The position numbers and the translations under genes were made by a program. Shown here piece by piece: positions 8,174 through 16,071 of a DNA stretch of 42,994 nt (positions are counted from its first letter, which is position 1; every line of letters starts with the position of its first letter). The DNA is from Candidatus Parvarchaeota archaeon. Lineage in GTDB: Archaea; Nanobdellota; Nanobdellia; Parvarchaeales; Parvarchaeaceae. The stretch spans positions 1 to 42,994 of the forward strand of contig JAMCRN010000021.1 of the NCBI GenBank assembly GCA_023380585.1. The letters are read 5' to 3'. The notes beneath the pieces are model-generated. The model was not told where the DNA came from and did no database searches. It saw only the letters and a list, made by a program, of their open reading frames with translations.

Positions 8174-9196
8174 ATGGGACTCCCATTCGAAAACGTTAAA
8201 AGGAGGACCATAGTGCTACGTGAGGAGGCGACAGACAGTGGATACGGCCTGAATCCGGAGGAGAGAAGCATAGAAGAAAGGTTAAAGACCGGCTTCATAC
8301 TTCTGGATAAACCTCCAGGTATAAGGTCCAAGACAGCGGCACATATAGCGAAGAAGATATTGGCACCTTTGGATGTGACTAAGATCGGTTACTCCGGGAC
8401 TTTAGAAGACTGAAGAAATCCCAACGTTACAGGTCTCTTGCCACTTACATTGAATCGTGCTACAAGGGCTATAAGTCCGCTTTTACTTGGTGGAAAAGAA
8501 TACGTGGCGCTTATGCATCTGCACGGAGAGGTCACCGAGCAGTTACTCGTATCTGTGCTTGACTCATTCACAGGGAAGATAAAACAGCTTCCGCCAGTAA
8601 GGTCTCATGTTAAGCGGCAGGAAAGAGAAAGAGAGATATTCTACATAGACCTTTTGGAGATCCAGGGAAAGGACGTTCTTTTCAGAGTCGGGGTGCAATC
8701 TGGCACATACATACGAAAGCTTATCCACGACATAGGACAGAAGCTTGGCGCTGGTGCGCATATGACCGAACTGAGGCGTACAAAAGTCAGCCACTTATCA
8801 GAAAAGGACAGACTTGTCACGCTGCAGGACCTGGAAGATGCTGTTTATTTATATCTCCAGGAGAGTGACGGCAGGCTGCTGGATTTTTCTATACAGACTA
8901 TAGAAAAGGCACTAGATTTCCTTCCAAAGGTCATGGTTTCCGATACTGCTGTCGATCCGATATGCCTTGGAGCAGGAGTGGCGATACCAGGTATAGTGAG
9001 GCTCGATGATTTCAAGGCAGGTGATAGAATATTCATATCCACGTTGAAAGGCGAGCTGATAGCCTTGGGCGATGCGGTCTTGGATTCGGATAAGCTCATT
9101 AAAATGAAGAAGGGGATAGCAGTAAAGACAGATAGCGTTATAATGTTGCCTGGTACATATCCTAGATATAAGAGAAAAGACATAGGAAGTCAATGA
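8174..9196 (+). CDS. cbf5: Cbf5/TruB pseudouridine synthase, interrupted by a predicted 12-nt BHB intron
   Basis: Two open segments in the same frame are separated by a TGA at 8411-8413. The first ends ILLDKPPGIRSKTA...IGYSGTLED; the second continues RNPNVTGLLPLTLNRAT. Family members read G-x-S-G-T-L-D-P-x-V-T-G here, where the Asp is the catalytic nucleophile. Removing 8406-8417 gives GGG ACT TTA GAT CCC AAC, that is GTLDPNVTG, with Asp78 restored. The spliced product is 336 residues, normal for archaeal Cbf5, with the TruB core and a C-terminal PUA domain (about 250-330, containing GAGVAIPGIVRLDDFKAGD). Cbf5 is the catalytic subunit of H/ACA RNPs and also makes tRNA pseudouridine 55. The remainder shows no decay, so a pseudogene is unlikely. 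Start 8174 is chosen from TATA spacing. Confidence 0.88.
8406..8417 (+). other. Predicted 12-nt archaeal BHB intron in cbf5 pre-mRNA
   Basis: The bases fold as a complete bulge-helix-bulge. The outer exon helix is GGGA (8396-8399) with TCCC (8419-8422). The four-pair central helix is CTTT (8400-8403) with GAAG (8412-8415): three Watson-Crick pairs and one U-G. The three-nt bulges are AGA (8404-8406) and AAA (8416-8418), and AGACT (8407-8411) is the terminal loop. Archaeal splicing endonuclease cuts between nt 2 and 3 of each bulge, which defines the intron AAGACTGAAGAA. It contains the only in-frame stop of the gene and is a multiple of three. Its excision restores the catalytic motif. Splicing is inferred, not demonstrated. 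Confidence 0.82.
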
Positions 9197-9197
9197 T

Positions 9198-9271
9198 GGG
9201 GTGGTGATCTAGCTTGGTATGATGCTAGCTTCGGGGGTTAGTTGTCCTGGGTTCAAATCCCAGCCACCCCA
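9198..9271 (+). tRNA. tRNA-Pro (anticodon CGG)
   Basis: Acceptor GGGGTGG (9198-9204) pairs with CCACCCC (9264-9270), with discriminator A 9271. The anticodon stem CTAGC/GTTAG encloses loop TTCGGGG, giving anticodon CGG. The T arm is CTGGG-TTCAAAT-CCCAG. CCA is not encoded and no intron is seen. The gene starts one base after the cbf5 stop codon, so it may be released from the cbf5 transcript. Confidence 0.93.
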
Positions 9272-9332
9272 AATACAGTTCTGGGTATAGTATATCTCTC
9301 TCTTAATCTCACTCCTTGCTAGCACATATAAA

Positions 9333-15951: not shown

Positions 15952-16061
15952 GGGGCTGTAGTATAACGGCAGAACAAGCGGCTCCAGTCTGACTGGAAGC
16001 ATGACGCAAGGATGATTAAAGAAGAAACCGCTTGATCCAGGTTCAAATCCTGGCAGCCCCA
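15952..16061 (+). tRNA. tRNA-Trp (anticodon CCA) with a 39-nt intron
   Basis: Acceptor GGGGCTG (15952-15958) pairs with CAGCCCC (16054-16060), with discriminator A 16061. The anticodon stem AGCGG (15977-15981) pairs with CCGCT (16028-16032). The 5' loop half CTCCAG gives anticodon CCA at 15984-15986; A 16027 is position 38. The T arm is CCAGG-TTCAAAT-CCTGG. The bases right after the discriminator read CCA (16062-16064), so the 3' CCA may be encoded, unlike in the other tRNA genes of the window. The D arm is weakly paired. Confidence 0.9.
15988..16026 (+). other. Intron of tRNA-Trp at canonical position 37/38
   Basis: The 39 nt between G37 and A38 are removed to give the loop CTCCAGA. The BHB is relaxed: CTCC (15982-15985) faces GAAG (16021-16024) with one C-A mismatch, and the downstream bulge is AAA (16025-16027). 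The 3' splice context, GAAGAA then A, is identical to that predicted in the cbf5 intron. A CTGA (15989-15992) and an ATGATTA (16012-16018) recall D and C boxes, but the intron is too short for a typical guide RNA. Confidence 0.78.
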
Positions 16062-16071
16062 CCAGCTTTTC

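Follow-up and report, generated by a model that had tools for sequence, protein, structure and literature searches.

How can a very small archaeon produce Cbf5, an essential RNA-modifying enzyme, from a gene that carries a stop codon in the middle of its catalytic motif? The question is raised by a contig of a Candidatus Parvarchaeota archaeon (the window, i.e. the whole stretch of 42,994 nucleotides that was analysed), in which the frame starting from the ATG at 8174 reads GGG ACT TTA, then GAA GAC TGA, and ends at the in-frame TGA at 8411-8413 (forward strand, as are the other parts of cbf5 and the tRNA-Trp gene described below). We propose that positions 8406-8417 are an archaeal tRNA-type (bulge-helix-bulge, BHB) intron of the cbf5 pre-mRNA, cut by EndA and joined by RtcB, and give this reading a probability of about 0.96. 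It is based on sequence, conservation, covarying pairing, selection acting on both exons as well as on the codons around the insert, and the presence of the enzyme genes; from these we infer the cuts, the ligation and any regulatory use that the stop may have.

The interrupted cbf5 gene

The predicted exon 1 (8174-8405) begins with the ATG, carries the TruB_N domain (Pfam) and ends with the G that opens the catalytic Asp codon. The predicted exon 2 (8418-9196) begins with the AT of the same codon and encodes the remaining pseudouridine synthase and the C-terminal region. Between them, the 12-nt insert AAGACTGAAGAA (8406-8417) interrupts the Asp codon as G|AT. An earlier note on this DNA had claimed that the TGA splits cbf5 at the catalytic motif and that excision of the 12 nt restores GTLDPNVTG. 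Re-reading of 8396-8422 (GGGA CTTT AGA AGACT GAAG AAA TCCC) gave the same coordinates. With the insert removed, the join reads ...GGGACTTTAG|ATCCC..., the codons become GGG ACT TTA GAT CCC AAC, and GTLDPNVTG is found in a single frame from 8174 to 9196.

Both halves of the gene, which is present as a single copy in the genome, match TruB_N. The closest solved structures are those of archaeal Cbf5 (PDB, E=5e-90, residues 7-330), with GTLDP aligned to GTLDP. Across the genus, the cbf5 homologs are 60-67% identical. We also observed that a tRNA-Pro(CGG) gene (9197-9272) begins one base past the cbf5 stop codon; since the two directly adjoin, they may be co-transcribed. Archaeal homologs of Cbf5 are able to form pseudouridine 55 of tRNAs.

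Distribution of the insert in the family and the class

The cbf5 gene was detected in 52 of 55 related genomes. When these genes were aligned at the site, as the earlier note had suggested, the 12-nt insert appeared at the same place in 19 of the 27 genes detected in the same genus and was missing from intronless relatives. The genus inserts vary mainly in the middle of the loop (GAC, GCC, AAT, GAT, CAA, CAT, TAT, GCT or TAA). In 19 of the 32 family genomes the motif GGGAYYTTAG-N5-TGARGAAATCCY has a single match, always in cbf5, and the reversed pattern, used as a control, had no matches in these 32 genomes; the presence of the motif in cbf5 is far beyond chance. In the sister genus, two of three genomes (G030 and G031) carry a 16-nt, frame-shifting insert TGTGATTCACAAAGAA with an extra inner stem, GTG/CAC, and its predicted splicing restores GTLDPNVTG as well. 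The 16-nt form is also found in a record of Ca. Acidifodinimicrobium mancum, and the same DNA in Candidatus Parvarchaeota records. In nine other family members the motif is uninterrupted.

An assembly error or a decaying pseudogene might be suspected in an incomplete draft (83%, 31 contigs) with apparent frame disruptions in two other genes. The sharing of the insert by 19 same-genus genomes, the single copy of cbf5 and the strong purifying selection on exon 2 leave this explanation a negligible chance. Between close carriers, dN/dS of exon 2 is about 0.03-0.08; therefore, exon 2 appears to be translated.

A class-wide protein search (207 genomes) revealed breaks at the same Cbf5 residue in further families. 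Individual sequences, together with a pattern scan that covered 378 genomes, placed predicted introns at precisely the base seen in the window in 34 genomes from seven families, a number that is a lower bound because the pattern demands GGGA and ATCC. The carriers comprise 21 genomes of the window's family and 13 elsewhere (12 found by the pattern and one, G081, by sequence). Among the 34 class-wide pattern matches, the one in G134 was rejected as false, with the intact GGAACGTTAGATCC; the control also gave one match. Scans of viral contigs produced chance matches only, with no similarity to Cbf5. The lengths of the cbf5 introns in the class are 12, 13, 15, 16, 20, 21, 22 and 29 nt, and predicted excision restores an uninterrupted Cbf5 in the window's genome, in G030 and G031, and in the class-wide carriers.

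On the family tree, the three states (12-nt, 16-nt and intronless) need three changes. On the class tree, presence and absence need nine changes, at least six of which are forced by strong branches; these trees give the number of changes without separating gain from loss. For example, the intron is present in G211 but not in G101 of the same genus, and in G061 but not in G153 and G210, again of one genus. Most sampled genomes of the class have no detected cbf5 intron. Judged from these comparisons, the putative intron is widespread and has been repeatedly gained and/or lost.

Pairing, selection and the in-frame stop

In the window, the outer helix is formed by two exonic strands, GGGA (8396-8399, the Gly codon and the first letter of the Thr codon) and TCCC (8419-8422, the third letter of the Asp codon and the Pro codon). 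The central 4-bp helix joins the exonic CTTT (8400-8403) to the intronic GAAG (8412-8415). We found the same layout in all 14 distinct introns, i.e. an outer helix GGGA/TCCY, a 4-bp central helix and 3-nt bulge positions (3-4-3 spacing), with 100% pairing in both helices; predicted cuts after the second base of each bulge position fit all 14. The central pairs numbered 56 of 56, a result reached in none of 100,000 shuffles. The central helix takes the forms CTTT/GAAG, CTTT/AAAG, CCTT/GAGG, CCTT/AAGG, CGTT/AACG, CACT/AGTG, CATT/AATG, CTCT/AGAG and CTCT/GGAG, so that its two strands covary over seven families: 12 cells were altered on both sides compared to 3.6 in shuffles (0 of 500). One compensatory pair change, GAGG opposite CCTT in G023, lies inside the genus.

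The earlier note had described a complete BHB motif in the window. The eight helix pairs that it named are right (one of them U-G) and the 3-4-3 spacing is kept, but the minimum-energy fold of the 12-nt form is a helix-bulge-helix-loop. It has the AAA bulge (8416-8418, predicted cut after 8417 from the fold and the spacing) at the 3' site, while the 5' splice site is in or next to the loop. The 5' bulge position AGA (8404-8406, predicted cut after 8405) is here part of an 8-nt loop and not a true bulge. Past it, an inner helix could have at most one A-U pair, less than a strict hBHBh' BHB has, and "complete BHB" is therefore too strong a term for the window's species; by its predicted fold, the 12-nt form is a relaxed motif (bulge-helix-loop). 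An inner helix does exist in the 16-, 21-, 22- and 29-nt introns of relatives. Among four other introns that were folded, those of 22, 21 and 29 nt are exact BHBs and the one of 13 nt is a bulge-helix-loop.

In the proposed mechanism, the outer helix GGGA/TCCC and the CTTT strand of the central helix would come from the codons for Gly-Thr-Leu-Asp-Pro, and the opposite strand from the intron. EndA would cut at 8405|8406 and at 8417|8418, two bases into either bulge position, and ligation of the exons by RtcB would rebuild the split Asp codon (G+AT). Translation of unspliced RNA would terminate at the intronic TGA and yield only an inactive N-terminal fragment of 79 residues, with the ATG at 8174 as residue 1.

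The five flanking codons bear the mark of such pairing. Codon identity among carriers was 1.0 for GGG, 0.89 for ACT, 1.0 for TTA, 1.0 for GAT and 0.80 for CCC, whereas the remaining invariant residues averaged 0.45. The corresponding five codons of the nine intronless relatives had values of 0.44, 0.31, 0.08, 0.44 and 0.25, with a mean of 0.37 elsewhere. Because these codons are frozen in carriers and variable in intronless relatives, an RNA structure appears to be overlaid on the code only where the intron is present.

An in-frame stop was found in each of the 14 distinct introns. In shuffled loops, the probability of a stop ranged from 0.17 to 1.0, with a product of 2.5e-5 over 13 introns; since the introns are not independent, the excess only suggests that a stop in the unspliced RNA is favoured. 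Could the cell nevertheless do without splicing, by readthrough or recoding of the TGA or by ribosome hopping over the insert? The 12-nt insert preserves the frame and most carriers have a single stop, as readthrough would need, but G022 has a tandem TAA-TGA and the introns of 13, 16, 20, 22 and 29 nt shift the frame; the double stops and frame shifts therefore exclude readthrough. Moreover, its product, GTLE-D-x-R-NP, would lose the catalytic Asp, and the in-frame GAC/GAT of the insert is unconserved (GCC, CAT, AAT, TAT, TAA or CAA in relatives). Covariation of the RNA helices also argues against it. A tRNA-SeC(TCA) reported by ARAGORN with a 12-nt intron (G000 C1:4101-4183) makes a better tRNA-Gly(TCC), in our reading, whose 12-nt intron is located at 37/38. 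Taken together, translation through the insert by any of these routes is extremely improbable.

A stop in every distinct intron would also fit termination control, by a hairpin that EndA cuts without rejoining (an element of destruction or regulation) or by an uncut translational regulator. Such a role on its own is very unlikely, given that an uninterrupted Asp codon would never be restored without joining, that both halves of this single-copy gene are under purifying selection, and that the crenarchaeal counterparts are joined in vivo. To return to splicing, the cbf5 intron is real and conserved, and almost certainly spliced. The principal claim of the earlier note, that cbf5 of a DPANN-type archaeon contains a protein-coding intron which is spliced out, gains strong comparative support from conservation, same-base introns in seven families, covariation, intronless sisters, frozen codons, and the EndA and RtcB genes.

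Splicing enzymes and other introns

The genes of both EndA and RtcB are present in the window's genome. EndA is a single 172-aa subunit with the best full-length match to the M. jannaschii homotetramer (E=3e-32). A search of 31 genomes gave no convincing second subunit outside G037, though a divergent beta subunit could escape such a search; a weak second match on contig C16 was rejected as an antisense-looking frame. EndA was not found in two of 24 genomes (G151 and G240), perhaps through incompleteness. According to reviews, relaxed motifs are cut well only by heterotetrameric or epsilon2 enzymes, and alpha4 enzymes are narrow in specificity. An alpha4-like EndA is thus in tension with the relaxed 12-nt motif, and our reading requires either a second subunit that escaped the search or an alpha4 enzyme of wider range. 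What eases the tension is that the genome also encodes a tRNA-Gly(CCC) whose 12-nt intron (CAGC TTCC CAA AATAA GGAA AAA GCTG) has the layout seen in cbf5. In the relative G015, tRNA introns of 11-14 nt are common. Within the window, tRNA-Trp(CCA) with a 39-nt intron (15952-16064, ARAGORN) is another predicted substrate of the same machinery.

We compared the window's genome with the complete genome of G015, a relative that lacks the intron, over 561 homologous stretches (451 kb in total) and found cbf5 to be the only intron-like interruption; this comparison misses introns without stops or common to both genomes, and left out about 23 kb (the ends of C31 and C12). Two further interruptions that were examined individually were rejected as frame errors with no net intron. 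The gene of ribosomal protein S12 (G000 C15:77-511) has two compensating frame shifts, and a homolog of a 655-aa G015 protein (G000 C25:12599-13836) has one; both cases look like sequencing errors. A purely structural scan of the genome for 3-4-3 BHBs joining open frames is useless without homology, because most of its 685 matches were gene junctions.

In relatives, the rtcB gene is itself interrupted. Putative tRNA-type introns split the Tyr codon of HxGYG as T|AC in L370 (G153; 31 nt), L371 (G061; 32 nt) and L375 (G033; 31 nt). The rtcB of L372 (G143) has one of 29 nt at GFD|INCG, and that of L373 (G188) one of about 32 nt near DGH. Predicted splicing restores the motif in these genes. The introns fit the 3-4-3 spacing except in G188 (three of four central pairs), and their outer helix is short, at about 2 bp. 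In G063, G076, G108 and G165, the tblastn pieces of rtcB break at the same two sites with gaps of 23-29 nt, and G108 apparently has two introns. In 12 more genomes (G055, G081, G093, G171, G258, G264, G040, G046, G126, G135, G097 and G052), rtcB frames of about 950-1475 aa contain inserts of about 1.5 kb, mostly at the INCG site; these are likely to be inteins, two of them in G052. The Cbf5 of L275 (G096) and L276 (G162) lies in an open frame of 824 and 829 aa, respectively, in which a large insert, likely an intein, follows about residue 179 and keeps the frame.

Crenarchaeal counterparts, origin and meaning

Introns in protein-coding genes of archaea are rare. In the literature searched, the confirmed ones are those of crenarchaeal cbf5. 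They are 16-44 nt long, with BHB or relaxed BHB motifs, were confirmed by cDNA in several cases and are spliced in vivo (Watanabe et al. 2002; Yokobori et al. 2009, PMC2738675). In these unrelated, heat-loving archaea the boundary splits the same codon after the same letter as here, G|AT (PMC2738675), which makes the crenarchaeal link drawn in the earlier note stronger than its author could know. In both groups, cbf5 introns are scattered, subject to loss and too short to code for anything. On the other hand, the hosts here are DPANN archaea rather than Desulfurococcales or Sulfolobales, the introns are of 12-29 nt rather than 16-44 nt, the only EndA found is alpha4-like rather than a heterotetramer, and splicing is predicted rather than observed.

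Archaeal tRNA introns with relaxed BHB motifs (hBH, bulge-helix-loop) have the same predicted enzymes and the same spacing of 3-nt bulges around a 4-bp helix, but the cbf5 intron is located in an mRNA and draws its outer helix from codons of the catalytic motif, where tRNAs use the anticodon stem. Putative introns of the same size, 12 bp, have been described in protein-coding genes of the rudivirus SIRV1 (Peng et al., as cited in PMC2738675); these are viral and their splicing is putative, and the likeness lies in the size and in the coding location. Our literature searches, which covered sources outside subscription journals, gave no report of cbf5 introns in DPANN, and the Parvarchaeales papers mention neither introns nor cbf5. 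By its sequence features, the candidate intron is of the known crenarchaeal kind, but smaller and in a new superphylum.

Apart from the mechanism, one may ask if a single ancient intron was ancestral to the DPANN and crenarchaeal cbf5 introns, with intronless lineages as losses, or if introns were repeatedly gained at a preferred site. The identity of gene, codon and letter boundary in the two superphyla, the small size and variable interior of the introns in both, and the loss documented in Crenarchaeota would fit one origin. Set against it are the nine or more changes required on the class tree (six forced by strong branches) and the sampled genomes, most of them with no intron detected. In addition, GTLDP forces GGN AC...GAY CCN, close to the outer helix, so that GGN-ACN-NNN-GAY-CCN is itself a near inverted repeat and the site could invite independent gains. 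We consider the single ancient origin possible but somewhat doubtful.

More tentatively still, mini-introns of tRNA type, almost all of them with a stop in frame, might recur in DPANN archaea at the catalytic-motif codons of genes for RNA processing (cbf5, and in relatives rtcB, the gene of the splicing ligase), which would tie the output of these enzymes to the splicing system to which they belong. Either a selected feedback control would then be at work, or the cbf5 intron would predate the split of DPANN and Crenarchaeota; we hold this broader idea to be rather unlikely. In practical terms, with tiny introns at the same base in seven families, gene callers probably break cbf5 in many DPANN genomes, and cbf5 (and rtcB) are probably mis-annotated there as broken or missing. 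A further question raised by the finding is how a relaxed motif would be processed by an EndA that seems to be of the alpha4 type. Seven DPANN families with predicted introns down to 12 nt, including sister species that differ in the intron, would provide a comparative system for its origin, gain and loss.
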